Part shown: one piece after another, positions 4,379-11,115 of the stretch
Layout of the letters: the number at the start of each line of letters is the position of its first letter
Numbering within the stretch: the stretch's first letter is position 1
From: Flavobacterium azizsancarii
Lineage (GTDB): Bacteria > Bacteroidota > Bacteroidia > Flavobacteriales > Flavobacteriaceae
NCBI RefSeq assembly: GCF_027980145.1
Contig: NZ_JAMZNK010000014.1
Span: 1 to 64,000, forward strand
Length of the DNA stretch: 64,000 nucleotides
Direction: 5' to 3'
Made by a program: the position numbers and the translations under genes
The notes under the pieces: generated by a model
Database searches by the model: none
The model's input: only the letters and a program-made list of their open reading frames with translations
Told to the model about the DNA's origin: nothing

Positions 4379-4948
4379 TTACAATTTCGATTTTATCCTG
4401 CTTAGGGTAGAAGGAGATATTCCTAAATAGGAAGCCATCATTTTATTTGATATGCGTAGCAACAATTGTGGTTGGTGTTTAATAACCCATTTAACTTTAT
4501 CTAAAGCATCAAAACCTTGAAAGCCATAAATTCTTTTTTGAGCTACAATAAACCCAAGCTCTAAAATTTCAGTGTATAATTTTGCAAATTGAGGTACCTC
4601 GTCAACTAATTTATAAAAATCGATTCTTGAAATACAAAGTAATTCAGACTTTTCTATGGTTTGTAAGTACTCTTCTGCTGGTTTTTGGTCAATAAAACTT
4701 GGTAAAGCAGTAACAAAATTGCCCTCGAAAGCAAAATATCTCGAACTTTCATAGCCATCTTTAGACGCAGTAAACAAACGAACACAGCCTTTGTTTATAA
4801 AATAATAATGATGGCATACTTGGTCATAATTCAGCAGGATTTCCTTTCGCTTTGTTTTTACTAAACTAAAGTACAAAGAAATTTTAAGAAGTGATTGGTC
4901 GTCTATGTCAGTTTTGCTTTTTATGAATTTTTGAAGAGTGGAATACAT
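4379..4948 (-). CDS. Crp/Fnr family transcriptional regulator
   Basis: A 189-residue protein with an N-terminal cyclic-nucleotide-binding-type beta barrel (about 25-115, including the FINKGCVRLF and YFAFEGNFV segments) and a short C-terminal helix-turn-helix ending ISNKMMASYLGISPSTLSRIKSKL. This compact architecture is common in Bacteroidota, where such regulators typically lack the canonical cAMP-binding residues; the ligand is unknown. It lies immediately upstream of the GlcG/HbpS-like and hydroxyisourate hydrolase genes on the same strand, 62 bp away. It is the likely regulator of that pair, or at least co-oriented with it. Confidence 0.85.
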   Translation of the reverse strand: MYSTLQKFIKSKTDIDDQSLLKISLYFSLVKTKRKEILLNYDQVCHHYYFINKGCVRLFTASKDGYESSRYFAFEGNFVTALPSFIDQKPAEEYLQTIEKSELLCISRIDFYKLVDEVPQFAKLYTEILELGFIVAQKRIYGFQGFDALDKVKWVIKHQPQLLLRISNKMMASYLGISPSTLSRIKSKL

Positions 4949-5302: not shown

Positions 5303-6811
5303 CTAAATAGTAGTTCTAAACTGTTTTAAAGGCAGCGTAACAATAAATTCAGCTCCATTGTCTTTTTCTCCAATAGCTCTGATATCTCCATTATGTCTTT
5401 TTACGATTTTTCTGCAAAGTGCAAGACCAAGACCATTTCCTTCGTACTGATCTTTGGAATGCAGTCTTTCAAAAGCATTAAAAATCCTTTCGTAATGACT
5501 TGAATCCAATCCAATACCATTGTCTTTGATGCTTATTTGCAATAAATCTTTACCATCACTATTTATAATAATAGATGTTATTATAACCCTGGGCGGCTGA
5601 TCTGCTTTTGAAAACTTTAATGCATTGTGAATAAGGTTATAAAAAAGCTGCTGGATCAGTATAGGAGCTCCTTCGATATACGGAAGCTCACTTGCAATTA
5701 GTATGGCGTCTTTCTCTTTTATAATCAGTTCAAGATCTATTTTTATATTTTCAATTATTGCATCGAGATTTATATTGTCAACTGGCTGAGTTGTTTTATT
5801 AATGGTCGAGTAAGACAAAATACCTTCTATAATTGTCTGCATGCGCTCAGCAGAATGTTGAACTTTTTCAAGATATTTTTTTGAGTTTTCCGAAAAATTA
5901 GTTTCAATATCATTTCTTAAAAGACCATTGAAAAATTTAATTTTCCTAACCGGCTCTTTCAGATCATGGCTTACTACATTGGCAAAATGCAGCAAATCAT
6001 CATTTGATTTGCGCAGCTCCTCGGTATTCTCGGCAACCTGTTTTTTAAGTTCATCCGAGAACTGTTTTTGTTCGCTGATGTCCTGTACAATTCCGATAAT
6101 AGTGGTAGGATTACCCTTTTCGTCCTTGATAATTTTACCATTGATTTTAACCCATCGAACAGAATTGTCCTTATTTAAAATTCTTGCCTCATAACACATT
6201 TTTCCAGTAATCTGAGCTTCTTTGTGTGCTTTTTCCCGCATTAACTGATCATCAGGATGCAATTTTGAAATAAGCTGCTCGTTGGCTATTTCTCCTTCAA
6301 CAGACCAGATTTCATTGAAATTTCGCGATGTCTTGATTTTTTTTGTTTTAAGATCTATTTCATATGTTCCCATACCTGAGGAATCCAGTGCCATCCTTAA
6401 TCTTTCATCTGAGTTCAGTATCTGCTGCTGTGCAAGATTAAGATCTGTAACATCTGTAGCTGTATTCATTACGCCATAGATTTTTCCATTGGAATCGTAT
6501 AGCGGTGTAAAACTATAATTAAAATAATGCGTTTGTAATACCTGACTTATTACCAAATCTACCCTTACATTTTTTGCATAGAATGCAAAGCCTGTTTTTA
6601 GCACATTAAGTATCTGTTCAAATATTTGCTGGTTTTCCAGTTCTAGCAGAATTTCTTTGTAACTTTTACCTATAACATCTTCCCCTTTACCCCAGGTTGT
6701 GATCATAGCAGGATTAGCTATTTGAATTTTTAATTCATCGCTGACATAAACTCCTATTGGAAATGGTGCAGTTTCTACTATGCCTTTCAAAATAAGCAAG
6801 TTGTCGTACAT
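5303..6811 (-). CDS. soluble PAS-PAS sensor histidine kinase
   Basis: A 502-residue sensor kinase without obvious membrane segments. Two PAS domains are seen: the first at about 5-125 and the second at about 133-250, ending in the PAC-type GIVQDISEQ motif. A short coiled coil (about 250-275) leads to the dimerisation/phosphoacceptor domain with H282 in the VVSHDLKEP motif. The ATPase domain has N-box residues N392 and N396, DNGIG at 430-434 and GLGLA at 460-464. All catalytic motifs are intact. No response regulator is adjacent, so it is an orphan kinase. PAS domains suggest an intracellular redox, light or small-molecule cue; the nearby photolyase cluster makes light conceivable but there is no direct evidence. 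Confidence 0.88.
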   Translation of the reverse strand: MYDNLLILKGIVETAPFPIGVYVSDELKIQIANPAMITTWGKGEDVIGKSYKEILLELENQQIFEQILNVLKTGFAFYAKNVRVDLVISQVLQTHYFNYSFTPLYDSNGKIYGVMNTATDVTDLNLAQQQILNSDERLRMALDSSGMGTYEIDLKTKKIKTSRNFNEIWSVEGEIANEQLISKLHPDDQLMREKAHKEAQITGKMCYEARILNKDNSVRWVKINGKIIKDEKGNPTTIIGIVQDISEQKQFSDELKKQVAENTEELRKSNDDLLHFANVVSHDLKEPVRKIKFFNGLLRNDIETNFSENSKKYLEKVQHSAERMQTIIEGILSYSTINKTTQPVDNINLDAIIENIKIDLELIIKEKDAILIASELPYIEGAPILIQQLFYNLIHNALKFSKADQPPRVIITSIIINSDGKDLLQISIKDNGIGLDSSHYERIFNAFERLHSKDQYEGNGLGLALCRKIVKRHNGDIRAIGEKDNGAEFIVTLPLKQFRTTI

Positions 6812-6981: not shown

Positions 6982-7116
6982 TTATTTATTTCTGCATTTA
7001 TCACTGCAATATTTCACTTTGTCCCAAACCTTTTTCCATTTTTTTCTCCATGCAAATGGTCTTTGGCAGACAACGCAGATTTTAGTGGGCAGGTTTTGTT
7101 TCTTAACTCCTCGCAT
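6982..7116 (-). CDS. DUF2256 small zinc-ribbon-like protein
   Basis: A 44-residue protein read on the minus strand from ATG (7114-7116) to TAA (6982-6984). It has paired cysteines C14-V-V-C17 and C37-S-D-K-C41 around a basic Trp-rich centre ([22 protein letters not shown]). This matches the DUF2256 pattern, a tiny putative metal-binding family often found beside cryptochrome/photolyase genes. Its start lies inside the end of the photolyase gene (14-bp overlap), which suggests translational coupling in one transcript. Function is unknown; zinc binding is inferred from the cysteines. The high Lys/Arg content fits nucleic-acid contact, but this is a guess. Confidence 0.82.
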
Positions 7117-8530
7117 TTTGTTGTTTATTTCTAAAACCCCAAACAATATCACTCGCGTATTTTCGAGTTTCCTCTATGTCAACTATAGGATCTGGATAAT
7201 CTGTACCTATCTCGCATTTGTAAAATTGCTGCTCAATACCATTTAATTTCCATGGTTCATGAATTAATTGTAATGGGATTTCCTTTAGTTCAGGCAGCCA
7301 TTTTTTTATAAAAAGGCCTTCTGAATCGTGCTGCTGAGAGTTTTTTATGGGATTATAAATTCTAATAATATTGCCGGTTGTTGTACCCGCCTGCATCTGA
7401 ATCTGCGGATAATGAATTCCGGGTTCGTAATCTAAAAACTGTCTGGCCAGAAAATGCAGTTCCCGCCAGTCCTGCCACAAATTAAATGTAAAAAAGGAAA
7501 CTACCATCGCCCGCATTCTAAAATTGATATAACCTGTTTCAACTAAACATCGCATGCAGGCATCAACAATAGGAACTCCGGTTTTACCCTCCTGCCACGC
7601 TTTTATATAGATTTCGTTTTTGGGTTTTACCAAAGAATCGTAATCTTTGTTTATGTTTTTAAATTCAATTTGACAGTCATTTTCAAATTTTTGCATAAAA
7701 TGACAATGCCAGTGCAGCCTGGAAACAAAATTAAGCATGGCTCTTTTGTTGGGCGATGCTTCATAAAACTGATTGGTATATTGATACACCATTCGCATAC
7801 TAACGTTTCCGTAGGTTAAATAGGGAGATAAACGGCTGCAGCCCTTTCGGCTTAAACCGGGTTTAGAAATATGTTTACTGTAATTGACATGTCTCTCTTT
7901 TGCAAAACTTTCCAAATACCGCCAGGCCCAATATTCTCCTCCCTGTTGAAAGTTTTCATTTCTCTCTGTTATTTCATTACAAAGTAATTTTCCTTGTAGC
8001 TTTTGATAAAAATCAGGAGTTAAATTTTCAAAATTAAAAGTATTGAGTTCAATCATTTTAGGTGCTGCACGCATCGTTTTTTCCCAGCGCTTATCCCAGT
8101 CCTCTCTTGATCGCAGCTTTCTGATTACACCGTGCAGTTGCGATTGTTTCCAAAGAATGTTATGAGCATCAAAAAAAGACTGCATGGCAATATCCCTGTC
8201 AAAAGTTACTTTGTTGCCTATTTCCTGATGCGAAAACACGGTTTGAACATCATAAAGACTGCATAGGTGTTCAAAAACAGTCTGGACTTCTTGATGAAAA
8301 TAATAAATCTGCGTGTCAATTGACTTTAATTTAGACTTCATTTCCTGTAAGGATTCATAAACAAACCGCCAATGACGTACATCAGAATCATCAAAGGCCA
8401 TTATTGAAGGCTCAAAAAAATAAACCAAAAGAAGCGGAATGTTTTCCTGCTGCGCCATAAAAAGAGGTTCGTGATCTGTAAAACGCAGATCACGTTTGAA
8501 CCACATAATATTTATCTTTTTTTTACTCAA
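7103..8530 (-). CDS. cryptochrome/photolyase family flavoprotein
   Basis: A 475-residue member of the DNA photolyase/cryptochrome family. The N-terminal Rossmann-like domain begins [19 protein letters not shown] (6-24). The C-terminal FAD-binding domain includes the [11 protein letters not shown] block (232-242), the [18 protein letters not shown] block (312-329), and the [12 protein letters not shown]...NIIRIYNP block (371-394). Such enzymes use FAD and light to repair UV pyrimidine dimers or 6-4 products, or act as photoreceptors; sequence by eye does not settle which. Length is normal. The start overlaps the end of the flavin reductase gene by 4 bp, and the end overlaps the DUF2256 gene, so it sits in the middle of a tightly coupled minus-strand operon. 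Confidence 0.88.
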
Positions 8531-9177
8531 CTTTTAAGTATTGATGTAATTTCCTTATTGGCTTTTGCATAACTTAAACGGTCCAGCTGTACTGTTTTAT
8601 GATAGCTGTCCAGACCCGAACAAGTAACCGTATTAGCTTTTTCTAAATTGACAAAACCATCTTCAGACAAGCAATCTTCGGGAATAAAAACCTGGACTAT
8701 TTCGCCGATAATCATAGTGGTATTATTGATTGAAATATCTGTTTTTTCTTTAAATTCAATACCTAACTGTATGTTGCTTTCGAGTACAAAAGGAGCTGGA
8801 AAGTTATTTTTATATTCTGCACTGAGTCCTGCAGCATCAAATTCTGAAATTTCTTTGTTGTATCTCGCTGATGTCTGATGTGCTTGTTTATAAATCTTTT
8901 CGTTGATATGATTAATGGTATAAAATCGTGTATCTAAAATATTTCTCATAGTATCACGCTCGGGCGGACTTGGGCGAAAAATCATCCCTATTAATGGCGG
9001 ATTGGCACCAATATGAAAAAAAGAACTAAAAATGGATAAATTAGTGTTTCCCTGACCATCAGAAGTTCCTACTAATGCTACACTTTTAAAACCGCCTAAA
9101 CTATTGATTAAATGCACGGCAGTTTGTTTGTCCATTTTTCCCAGATCACTGGTTTTAAAATTTATTTTGTTTTTCAT
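8527..9177 (-). CDS. flavin reductase-like FMN-binding split-barrel protein
   Basis: A 216-residue protein of the flavin reductase-like family. The core contains the typical segments [20 protein letters not shown] (29-48), [36 protein letters not shown] and, near the C-terminus, a LDRLSYAKA motif. Members bind FMN in a split barrel and reduce flavins or serve as flavin-dependent oxidoreductases. It overlaps the photolyase start by 4 bp (ATGA-type junction), so the two are translationally coupled. A natural inference is that it supplies or handles reduced flavin for the FAD enzyme encoded next to it, but this is not shown by sequence. Confidence 0.82.
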
Positions 9178-9192
9178 TAGTTTGAAATTTTA

Positions 9193-9612
9193 TTAAAAAA
9201 CAGCACTTTTCAAATCGATAAGGATCCATTTTTTATCACTGTTAAGTCTCAAAGTACCTACATGTTCCTTATTCCATTCTTTGGGTCCTATTAGCGAGAG
9301 AAAATCAAAACCATCTGCATCTTTGTATAAATGATATATTTCACCCACAATAGGTTCAAAAGAAAATCTGGCATTGTATACCCGTTCATTCCACTGGAAT
9401 TCTTCGATTAAATCCTGGTATTGCATTTTTAGTTCATTGAATTTGCTTTCAAATTCTCTGTTTACCTTATTGATGCCCATGTTTTTCCAGCCGGTTACAT
9501 CATCTGCCTTTATTACCGGTGCGCCCACACTTGTAGCATACGGCAAAAGGCTTGCATTATAACCATACTGATCATAAAACACTACATTATCCGGTTTATC
9601 TTTTTTGGACAT
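9193..9612 (-). CDS. DUF2452 domain protein
   Basis: A 139-residue protein matching the DUF2452 family as I remember it: an N-terminal KPDNVVFYDQYGYNASLLPYATSVGAPVI segment, a central amphipathic helix rich in Glu/Gln/Lys (about 48-72), and a C-terminal half with SFEPIVGEIYHLYKDADGFDFLSLIGPKEW. No signal peptide or membrane segment, so probably cytoplasmic. It lies 15 bp from the flavin reductase gene and 15 bp from the TIGR03643 gene, within the photolyase operon. Function unknown. Confidence 0.75.
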   Translation of the reverse strand: MSKKDKPDNVVFYDQYGYNASLLPYATSVGAPVIKADDVTGWKNMGINKVNREFESKFNELKMQYQDLIEEFQWNERVYNARFSFEPIVGEIYHLYKDADGFDFLSLIGPKEWNKEHVGTLRLNSDKKWILIDLKSAVF

Positions 9613-9627
9613 CTTCTAATATTTTTA

Positions 9628-9930
9628 TTAACGCTTAGAGATTTTATTATTTGAAATTGCTCTTTGTCTGTTACATTTAAACCTGTCAATTGCCTGAGTC
9701 CTCTTTCCAGCGTGTTTTGTTTTACAATTTTCAATCCTTTCACGCCATAACTTATAACTGCTGAACTTTAATTCTTTCTTCATCAAAGCTTTTACATCAG
9801 CTTCAGATAGACCAAATTGAAATTTTACAGCATCAAAAGGGGTTCGGTCTTCCCATGCCATTTCTATAATTCTGTCAATTTGAACTTCATTCAATACAGT
9901 ATTATCGATCTTTGCAATAATTGATTTCAT
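9628..9930 (-). CDS. TIGR03643 family protein
   Basis: A 100-residue basic protein. The central part (about 20-58) reads as a small helical domain with SEADVKALMKKELKFSSYKLWRERI, and the C-terminal half has the KHAGKR...FKCNRQR motif I associate with TIGR03643, a small conserved family. It is the first gene of the minus-strand photolyase operon and lies 15 bp upstream of the DUF2452 gene. Function unknown. The regular helix-turn-helix-like N-terminal region and positive charge suggest nucleic-acid binding, which is only inference. Confidence 0.72.
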   Translation of the reverse strand: MKSIIAKIDNTVLNEVQIDRIIEMAWEDRTPFDAVKFQFGLSEADVKALMKKELKFSSYKLWRERIENCKTKHAGKRTQAIDRFKCNRQRAISNNKISKR

Positions 9931-11115
9931 TTTATATTGTTTAACAATTATTAAATAACTTTAAACAAAAATAATCTTTTTTATATTTGTTAGAAGCGTA
10001 AAATTGAAATACATTTCATTTTAATTTGCCGGATATAATTTTAGAAAATAGAAATAGATTTTGTTTTTTCAATTTTGACAGAAGAAATGATTGAACTTAA
10101 GGAAAACACATACTAAATTTATGTTCTTACATGCATGCTTTGGAAAAATGCTGAAATTGGCAATGTCTTTCTAATATCTTTTGTTATTAAATATTTTTAA
10201 AAAAGCCTAAAGCGAATTAAGAAAATTTATTTTTAGGATTATAAATCAAAAATAACAAGTAATTTTAAAGTCAATACAAGTTTTTAAAATTGAATTAATT
10301 TTATGCATACAACTTTTAATATCTTCTAGAAGATTCTTAGTATTATGGCTCAAAATCCTGAAAGGGATTATACTTTAGAAGATTTAACTAATTTGGTTAT
10401 ACCTTATTTAGCTAAATCATTACAACAGGATTTATCTATGGAAATTATCAATCAGGCACAAGTTTTAGAGGGCATTAATAGTACTGGATCGTGAAGGATT
10501 AATTATTTTGGATTCAGATTCAGACAAAAGTATTATAAGCATGAAGGGACTTATAAATATAACTTCCACAAGTTTTCTAAATTGATTTTAAGCCTTTTTG
10601 GCTTTCTTTGGTAAAAGTTATAATAAGTATCCTCTATCCTATTTATGACCCTGTAAATCAAGACAAAAAGAACAAAATAGATCCTTTAGTGCCTTTTTTC
10701 GCTTATTTAAGAAGAAAAGCCAACCTTTCGCCTTTGGAATTTAGACAACATTTTAACTAAACGACGCTACAATGCCACTAAAAATACTAGGTTAACATGG
10801 ATGCCAGAATGGAGATGGACCGAAGTCCTAAGCTCGACTTTTACACTATATTTTAATATTTTAACTTTGAACTGTCCACTTAAACTGGGGGTAATATGAA
10901 CCATCAAAAAAAATAAAGAAGACCTAAGTTCACTTCAATTAATCTGCAGTGGTGAAAATTTATAGAACGTTTTATGATTAACAAAAAGATATAAAACACA
11001 GACAAACAATGTTTTTTAAGTTGACCCATTTTTATTTTTTCTTCTTTCTGGACTTTGTTAAAACCAAAAGGAATATTAAAGCGTAAATGACTTTATAACT
11101 TAAAAAAAAAGAATC
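9931..11115. other. gene-poor region with decayed coding fragments
   Basis: About 1.2 kb without an intact recognisable gene. A short frame at 10345-10494 (49 codons, MAQNPERDYTLEDLTNLV...) appears to continue in another frame after about 10470 (ALIVLDREGLIILDSDSD), as if broken by a frameshift. A second fragment at about 10650-10760 reads FFAYLRRKANLSPLEFRQHF then stop, which faintly resembles an EthD-type domain. At 10875-10905 a TGTCCACTTAAACTGGGGGT stretch could be an old insertion-sequence end. The promoters of the photolyase operon (left) and the fasciclin gene (right) must also lie here. Confidence 0.45.

Follow-up and report, generated by a model that had tools for sequence, protein, structure and literature searches.

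Photolyases are usually regarded as stand-alone enzymes. In Pseudomonas, the available part of one report describes LitR-controlled light-inducible genes, among them a photolyase, SDR, FolE, cryB and unannotated genes, which are arranged in compact operons (PMC9758184). A proximity cluster of photolyase and photolyase-related genes in proteorhodopsin-bearing marine Flavobacteriia is described in the available part of a second source (PMC5932025). The window analyzed here, a stretch of 64,000 nucleotides from Flavobacterium azizsancarii, has a compact photolyase-bearing operon like the former system. With the latter it has the bacterial class and the clustering of such genes in common. Unlike the Pseudomonas system, as far as that source describes it, the two flanking genes scanned in the window encode a PAS histidine kinase and a cNMP-binding regulator, neither of which is LitR.

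The operon consists of five open reading frames on the minus strand. The first gene (9628..9930, 100 aa) encodes a DUF2805/TIGR03643 protein (PF10985, E 2.1e-33, 114.9 bits against a cut-off of 22.5; TIGR03643, 110.3 bits against 66.55), and it is followed by the genes for a DUF2452 protein (9193..9612, 139 aa; PF10504, E 7.8e-13, 48.6 bits against 25), a flavin reductase-like (split-barrel) protein (8527..9177, 216 aa; PF01613, E 2.1e-17, 64.1 bits against 27), a photolyase-family flavoprotein of a divergent clade, named PHRx here (7103..8530, 475 aa, TTG start), and a DUF2256 protein (6982..7116, 44 aa, ATG start; PF10013, E 8e-22, 77.6 bits against 25). PHRx was placed in the photolyase/cryptochrome superfamily by PF00875 (DNA_photolyase, E 3e-19, 69.9 bits) and PF03441 (FAD_binding_7, E 6e-65, 218.9 bits), and the Pfam matches of all five proteins exceed the curated cut-offs. 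From DUF2805 to DUF2256 the intergenic gaps are 15, 15, -4, and -14 bp. The TTG start of the photolyase overlaps the stop of the flavin reductase by 4 bp, and there is a 14-bp overlap between the end of the photolyase gene and the start of DUF2256. The DUF2256 frame is also open from a GTG further upstream, at 7152. The tight packing, the family names, the gaps and the overlaps given in the preliminary description were all borne out by the open reading frames, Pfam and TIGR03643.

Upstream of DUF2805, TATTTTTG (9966..9973, minus strand) is a weak candidate for a Bacteroidota-type -7 element, according to the consensus that we assume for this phylum. The TAnnTTTG pattern occurs 83 times on both strands of the 64 kb, so this site carries little weight, and no -33 element matching it was found. 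Scans of sigma-70 promoters (16 promoter-like sites compared with 17.4 expected by shuffling) and of terminators (3 compared with 1.9) were uninformative.

To describe the conservation of gene order, 80 related loci were compared, which are those closest to the window DUF2805 among the matches listed and which lean to Flavobacterium, and are thus not a fair sample. The identical order DUF2805-DUF2452-flavin reductase-photolyase-DUF2256 on one strand was observed in seven of them (L062, L064, L065, L066, L067, L069, and L078), which is more than chance. The operon runs on into the gene of a DPRP (iron-sulphur type) photolyase in six of these seven loci, and a DASH cryptochrome gene comes after DPRP in five of those six; the DASH identity was confirmed for L064 and L069, and the DPRP identity for L065. 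Because six of the seven loci extend into more photolyase-family genes, the operon of the window is a shortened form. We give about an even chance to the reading that it is a photorepair operon for light or UV stress, reduced from a longer Flavobacterium photolyase operon.

The linkage between DUF2805 and photolyases was frequent, not universal. A photolyase-family gene lies within 6 kb of DUF2805 in 27 of the 50 complete DUF2805 loci, and in 19 of the 50 this distance includes neither a photolyase nor DUF2256 nor the reductase. The neighborhood is variable, including SDR, FolE, ABC1 kinase, TetR, NmrA/DUF2867, and phytoene synthase genes, and an SDR gene is found within 6 kb in 20 of the complete loci. 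Such surroundings would also be expected if the five genes were co-regulated under light stress but had no dedicated functional link. The operon would then be one section of a broader light-response neighborhood of Bacteroidota (SDR, FolE, ABC1 kinase, TetR, and phytoene synthase as well as DPRP and DASH), and the reductase and the small proteins would have roles in flavin, pterin or stress chemistry in general. In Pseudomonas, photolyase, SDR and FolE genes also belong to light-inducible sets, as described in the available part of PMC9758184, which points in the same direction. However, closer coupling is suggested by the overlapping starts and stops, by the gene order that is fixed among Flavobacterium-like loci, and by the small partial sets that other classes retain. 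We regard this alternative as possible but doubtful.

The co-occurrence of the families was then counted in 148 Bacteroidota genomes. DUF2805 and DUF2256 occurred together in 38 of them (Fisher 3e-21; the genomes are related, and Fisher values overstate their independence), and the two genes lie within 10 kb of each other in 14 of these 38, compared with about 0.5% per pair under random placement. DUF2256 was found in 50 genomes (one under the Pfam cut-off), including all 20 PHRx genomes, and it lies within 10 kb of PHRx in 12 of the 20, for which random placement likewise gives about 0.5%. The linkages DUF2805-DUF2256 and DUF2805-reductase were each observed in six Bacteroidota families, DUF2256-PHRx and DUF2256-reductase in four, and DUF2805-PHRx and reductase-PHRx in two. 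A strict tie of the reductase to PHRx was dropped, since 13 of the 24 genomes with a flavin reductase orthologue have no PHRx, and the two genes are within 10 kb in just 3 of the 11 genomes having both. The orthologue cut-offs were E<1e-70 for PHRx and E<1e-40 for the reductase, picked after the score gap was seen; seven DUF2805 paralogue matches were set apart before counting, and the survey counts of "any photolyase" are to be read as "at least." DUF2452 was linked in 1 of 12 cases in this survey, the one being the window itself. It was found in 12 of the 80 DUF2805 loci with a profile built from the window protein alone, which would miss remote members. Its linkage is limited to Flavobacterium-like loci, and DUF2452 may be a lineage-specific addition. 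Co-occurrence beyond close relatives, which the preliminary description had proposed to look for, was found for all families except DUF2452, that is, for four of the five, across Bacteroidota families and in Pseudomonadota.

Partial sets were observed in other bacteria. In Vibrio pelagius, PHRx is followed directly by the flavin reductase, with DUF2805 nearby. Salinivibrio and Tritonibacter carry a PHRx-DUF2256 pair, Novosphingobium has DPRP-DUF2256-PHRx, and Acinetobacter has DUF2805/DUF2256/DPRP, while DUF2256 stands with DPRP in Rhizobium, Vibrio parahaemolyticus, and Sphingomonas. DPRP (PF04244) photolyases, e.g., Agrobacterium PhrB, thus have the neighborhood and the DUF2256 neighbor in common with PHRx, but they belong to another Pfam N-terminal family; PF04244 (FeS-BCP) was not among the Pfam matches of PHRx up to E 1, and no match to it was found in the window's genome. 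Among 14 control genomes, DUF2256 was present in two (Caulobacter and Synechococcus elongatus), both of which are among the three with DPRP. Photolyase-family genes were absent from the stretch in 7 of the 14 DUF2256 plasmid loci examined (from 14 genera, out of 59 plasmid records). Four of 43 DUF2805 plasmid records were examined, a photolyase was absent at the one cyanobacterial and the one Pseudoalteromonas DUF2805 locus examined, and DUF2805 had no match in phages. Given the plasmid loci and the restricted range of DUF2452, the five genes are not a fixed unit. Since several genes of the operon recur together in distant bacteria, they are probably a repair kit for sunlight damage.

The least expected part of the operon was the PHRx photolyase. 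Sixteen members from three phyla were compared, with positions given in what we take to be E. coli numbering. Three residues that are invariant in the compared class I and DASH proteins are replaced in all 16 (E274R, N341F, and N378H), and the two substrate positions carry M345A/S and W384M in 16 of 16, unlike both class I and DASH. In the tryptophan triad 382-359-306, W359 is kept, and W382 and W306 are absent in every member, although the W306 column is loosely aligned and 4 of 17 DASH proteins also have no tryptophan there. W277, R342, and D372 are kept. The signature NFRMR[AS] / GIH[YF] / MQ[AS]G was present in 39 of 39 sequences. In Deinococcus, seven of seven plasmid records are annotated with a fusion of a clade member to uracil-DNA glycosylase, which was verified by Pfam and motif in one record.

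According to the available part of a published residue table, the substrate positions are M/W in class I, Q/Y in DASH and H/W in eukaryotic-type 6-4 photolyases, and PHRx fits no class listed there (PMC7560933). Class I CPD photolyase shares the two-domain family and W277, R342, W359, and D372 with PHRx, and was rejected as its identity on the basis of A/S and M at the substrate positions, Arg 274, His 378, and the incomplete triad. Cry-DASH, which has the same Pfam domains and whose gene is often a neighbor in the longer operon, was rejected because PHRx has A/S and M instead of Q and Y and reaches 137 bits with TIGR02765 (cut-off 317), below which the Vibrio and Tritonibacter members also fall. 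The eukaryotic-type 6-4 identity was rejected for A/S and M instead of H and W. In a tree of 39 sequences rooted with DASH, the 16 PHRx sequences formed a single clade (ultrafast bootstrap 89), and class I was the nearest clade. No ORF of Novosphingobium passed the filter, and its gene is not part of this tree; it scored 433 bits with the PHRx profile, and the signature was not found in its matched segment, the part searched. The best NCBIfam score of PHRx (152 bits) is below every photolyase cut-off, and the class I-type copy of the genome (G000:C156) is also below the cut-offs, with 347 and 320 bits. These cut-offs were dropped as a divider, and because they fail to separate the two, the separation of PHRx from class I rests on the residues and the tree. 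The best reading of these data is that PHRx is a distinct photolyase type, whose active site is systematically rebuilt. Since key residues for repair in class I enzymes are replaced, PHRx may have a changed activity on lesions or none at all. The lesion-binding and FAD-facing residues are uniformly replaced and PHRx matches no class of the residue table, which would also agree with a photoenzyme for another substrate (RNA, a base that has been modified or deaminated, or a molecule other than a nucleic acid), with the small proteins acting in that pathway. But the photolyase domains are generally conserved, including W277, R342, and D372, and the glycosylase fusion points to DNA, which makes this alternative very unlikely.

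The solved relative of the flavin reductase is 3fge (E 5.6e-65, residues 6-205), listed as "putative flavin reductase with split barrel domain"; the reductase alignment contained 10 sequences. The reductase gene adjoins DPRP at L147, and an SDR gene at a locus without a photolyase in the stretch. A flavin redox path common to the reductase and the photolyase, as suggested in the preliminary description, is plausible. Because PHRx has neither the FAD-proximal nor the surface tryptophan of the electron-transfer chain, we propose that the co-translated reductase would keep the flavin reduced chemically.

For the small proteins, the literature found by family name, as far as its available parts go, gives no tested function for bacterial DUF2805, DUF2452 or DUF2256, in agreement with the earlier statement that three of the five families have no known function. 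DUF2805 has a predicted helix-turn-helix-like core and a basic C-terminal tail ending in NKISKR (alignment of 26), and its AlphaFold2 model contains four helices (mean pLDDT 72). Foldseek gave no match at E<=0.001 (best E 1.4), the best VIA-align Z was 4.6, with all values below 5 and several HTH rows among the top, and profiles of solved structures gave nothing better than E 0.047. DUF2805 as a proven HTH protein was rejected on these values, and the HTH-like fold is a weak prediction. The genome has a second DUF2805 copy (G000:C92), a distant paralogue with 25% identity that adjoins a fatty acid hydroxylase gene, and no photolyase was seen in its 13 kb stretch. The DUF2452 model (alignment of 30) shows a long helix and, after it, a small beta sheet (mean pLDDT 73, residues 1-35 below 50), with no Foldseek match at E<=0.001. 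In DUF2256, four cysteines, C14, C17, C37, and C41 (CxxC ... CxxxC), are invariant in 18 of 18 aligned sequences, and the protein is a probable zinc ribbon; its best match to solved structures was ribosomal L24 at E 0.13. The available part of PMC4047054 groups DUF2256 with TRASH-type metal-binding domains.

The HTH-like prediction and basic tail of DUF2805, as well as the loss of class I repair residues in PHRx, which photoreceptors may also undergo, could indicate a light-signaling unit, with PHRx as a cryptochrome-like sensor and DUF2805 as its DNA-binding output. Plant or animal cryptochromes have a long C-terminal extension. PHRx, with 475 aa, does not, 23 of the 41 DUF2805 genomes are without PHRx, and the Deinococcus members of the clade carry a fused DNA repair glycosylase, so signaling appears quite unlikely. 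The preliminary description had left repair and signaling side by side; in light of the fusion, repair fits better, without proof, and signaling is less favored.

In the photorepair reading, the genome would have PHRx in addition to its class I-type photolyase, and this second enzyme would use light and reduced FAD for the reversal of a nucleic acid UV lesion. DUF2805 and DUF2256 would be small accessory factors of photolyases that bind nucleic acid or a partner, and the operon would be induced by light. A more far-reaching proposal is that PHRx represents a separate, unnamed class of photoenzymes (His for Asn facing flavin N5, no classical Trp chain), which would be reduced by a dedicated reductase and not by self-photoreduction, with DUF2256 and DUF2805 assisting bacterial photolyases in general as accessory factors, and which would act on a lesion beyond the class I enzyme. 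We consider this proposal unlikely as a whole; uracil-containing dimers are one example of such a lesion, at which the Deinococcus fusion hints.

If the photorepair reading is true, an operon with a reductase and two widespread small proteins suggests that accessory factors take part in bacterial photorepair, and the roles of DUF2805 and DUF2256 become testable through simple deletions. Furthermore, the three-phylum PHRx clade, with its rebuilt active site and its glycosylase fusion in Deinococcus, would test which residues photorepair needs and whether an outside supply of reduced flavin works.

The preliminary description had noted five tightly packed genes at 6982-9930. They are open reading frames on the minus strand, namely DUF2805/TIGR03643 (9930-9628), DUF2452 (9612-9193), a flavin reductase (9177-8527), a photolyase (8530-7103) and DUF2256 (7116-6982). 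The sequence confirmed the stated coordinates, the two gaps of 15 bp each and the two overlaps, one of 4 bp and one of 14 bp, and in profile scans all five family names scored above the curated cut-offs. The photolyase starts with TTG inside the stop of the reductase, and in a close relative (locus L062) it likewise has 475 aa, with an identical 4-bp overlap. The window lies on contig C55, in a genome of 5.84 Mb, and judged by DUF2805 its nearest named relatives among the matches listed belong to Flavobacterium. A PAS-containing histidine kinase gene (5303-6811, relatives in one other mapped locus, L042) lies on the same strand 170 bp downstream of DUF2256, and the next gene encodes a cNMP-binding regulator (4379-4948, relatives in three mapped loci, L032, L034 and L038). 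On the plus strand, a short open stretch (10344-10495) was judged by eye to resemble a truncated gene.

The photolyase falls in a divergent clade that we call PHRx. Among the matches listed, the 80 loci most like the window's DUF2805, which lean to Flavobacterium, were compared. The order DUF2805-DUF2452-reductase-PHRx-DUF2256 on one strand was found in seven of them (L062, L064, L065, L066, L067, L069 and L078), and in L068 and L070 the reductase was the sole member not found. The loci with full or near-full order were mostly Flavobacterium, while L065 was assigned to Bacteroidetes, L068 to Flavobacteriaceae and L078 to a Sphingobacterium metagenome bin. In six of the seven full-order loci the operon extends into a gene for an iron-sulphur type photolyase (DPRP, PF04244), and in five of those six on into a Cry-DASH (DASH) gene; NCBIfam or Pfam checks covered two of the DASH genes and one of the DPRP genes. 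The operon of L062 ends after DUF2256, as in the window, and a genome search gave no DPRP match in the window's genome. Since the longer operon is found in six of seven full-order loci and the window's operon, ending after DUF2256, lies in a genome with no DPRP match found, the window operon is a shortened version of the longer one.

In 148 Bacteroidota genomes, DUF2256 was found in 50 (above the Pfam cut-off in 49), main-type DUF2805 in 41, the reductase orthologue in 24, PHRx in 20 and DUF2452 in 18. DUF2805 and DUF2256 occurred together in 38 genomes, and DUF2256 was present in every PHRx genome (20/20). Random placement would give about 0.5% linkage per pair at 10 kb. Within this distance lay DUF2805-DUF2256 in 14/38 genomes (six families), DUF2805-reductase in 8/21 (six families), DUF2256-PHRx in 12/20 (four families), DUF2805-PHRx in 7/18 and reductase-PHRx in 3/11 (two families each), and DUF2805-DUF2452 in 1/12, which was the window itself. 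These values are undercounted because many assemblies are drafts, and the relatedness of the genomes biases them the opposite way. Of the 80 listed matches, 50 loci had 6 kb on either side of DUF2805; within it stood a photolyase-family gene in 27, DUF2256 in 26, an SDR family gene in 20 and the reductase in 10, with any of photolyase, DUF2256 or reductase in 31 and none in 19. Bacteroidota neighbours of the operon families included SDR, DPRP photolyase, DASH cryptochrome, GTP cyclohydrolase I, ABC1 kinase, a TetR regulator, NmrA/DUF2867 and occasionally phytoene synthase.

A family of short photolyase-like proteins (about 310-400 aa) frequently adjoined DUF2805 (L036:7442-8572, L037:2280-3383, L023:7811-8944 and four similar genes elsewhere); FAD_binding_7 was the sole Pfam match of the one member scanned, that of L036. 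A distant DUF2805 paralogue, found in seven genomes, all of the window's genus, adjoins a fatty acid hydroxylase gene (L059:6562-6843, G000:C92), and relatives of this hydroxylase occur close to main-type DUF2805 in L024 and L025 as well.

In other classes and phyla, PHRx is directly followed by the reductase in Vibrio pelagius, where about 1.4 kb separates the photolyase gene from DUF2805. PHRx-DUF2256 pairs occur in Salinivibrio and Tritonibacter, and DUF2256 stands between the DPRP and PHRx genes in Novosphingobium. DUF2805, DUF2256 and DPRP adjoin one another in Acinetobacter haemolyticus, and DUF2256 adjoins DPRP or lies one gene away in Rhizobium, Sphingomonas and Vibrio parahaemolyticus. 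In seven of the 14 DUF2256 plasmid loci examined (Azospirillum, Erwinia, Hirschia, Spirosoma, Agrobacterium, Thioclava and Salipiger), neither annotation nor profile search showed a photolyase-family gene up to 5 kb away, and none lay within 10 kb of DUF2805 in Tolypothrix and Pseudoalteromonas. In the 14 control genomes neither DUF2805 nor DUF2452 was found; DUF2256 was found in two (Caulobacter and Synechococcus elongatus) and DPRP in three, including both of those. On the Thioclava plasmid (L162:5001-5797), the gene immediately after DUF2256 encodes an SOS response-associated peptidase, another link to DNA damage without a photolyase. On a Persicobacter plasmid (L147:9992-12137), a reductase orthologue directly precedes a DPRP gene; the reductase therefore pairs with another photolyase type too.

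The signature NFRMR[AS], GIH[YF] and MQ[AS]G was found in 39/39 distinct aligned PHRx orthologues. Sixteen PHRx sequences (Bacteroidota, Gamma- and Alphaproteobacteria, Deinococcus) were compared with six class I-type and 17 DASH sequences, at positions that we take to follow E. coli numbering. E274, N341 and N378, invariant in the class I-type and DASH sequences compared, were replaced by R, F and H in 16/16 PHRx. W277, R342, W359 and D372 were retained, while W382 and W306 were lost, the W306 column being loosely aligned. At the two substrate positions all 16 PHRx sequences carry A/S and M, as against M and W in class I and Q and Y in DASH; in the available portion of PMC7560933, the class table lists no class with the PHRx pair. 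PHRx formed a single clade adjoining class I (39-sequence tree, support 89). A search of solved structures found no close relative, the best match being 1np7 (E 3.5e-39), presumably a DASH protein. The window's genome carries a second photolyase, class I-type by residues, between phytoene synthase and NmrA/DUF2867 genes (G000:C156).

In Deinococcus, PHRx-clade photolyases carry a fused uracil-DNA glycosylase domain, by annotation in 7/7 plasmid records (H80, H82, H83, H85, H87, H89 and H92), and one fusion was verified by Pfam and motif. The label under the PHRx match in all seven records is uracil-DNA glycosylase only. The Deinococcus proteolyticus plasmid encodes a 757-aa protein (L159:3998-6271) with a PHRx-type photolyase and a C-terminal uracil-DNA glycosylase domain.

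Among the small proteins, DUF2805 was predicted with middling confidence (pLDDT 72) as an HTH-like arrangement of four helices; its basic tail is conserved in the alignment, and structure comparison of the model gave weak matches. Four cysteines are invariant in aligned DUF2256, which is counted among TRASH-type metal-binding domains in the available text of PMC4047054. DUF2452 was predicted as a small sheet with a long helix, and a structure search with this model returned no confident match. The literature searched, which covers few subscription journals, held no paper naming TIGR03643, and the accessible text on the names and Pfam numbers of DUF2256, DUF2805 and DUF2452 gave no tested bacterial function. 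A paper on human C1orf50 reportedly names DUF2452.

Under searches for photolyase with flavin reductase, photolyase classes and photolyase-glycosylase fusion, again with few subscription journals covered, the accessible text of the matches listed did not describe the operon, the PHRx clade or the glycosylase fusion, which does not prove that no such paper exists. The nearest published relatives found, as far as their available text goes, were a cluster of photolyase-related genes from marine Flavobacteriia (PMC5932025), Pseudomonas light-inducible genes (PMC9758184), light-responsive operons containing RudS (PMC11417400) and a cyanobacterial UV-B operon with two photolyases (PMC9649867).

As PHRx lacks two members of the tryptophan chain, we propose that the reductase may supply reduced flavin, which is the weakest step of the mechanism since 13 of the 24 reductase genomes are without PHRx. 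DUF2256 and DUF2805 may act as accessory factors, and PHRx would repair a UV lesion in DNA, as a second-line enzyme alongside class I.
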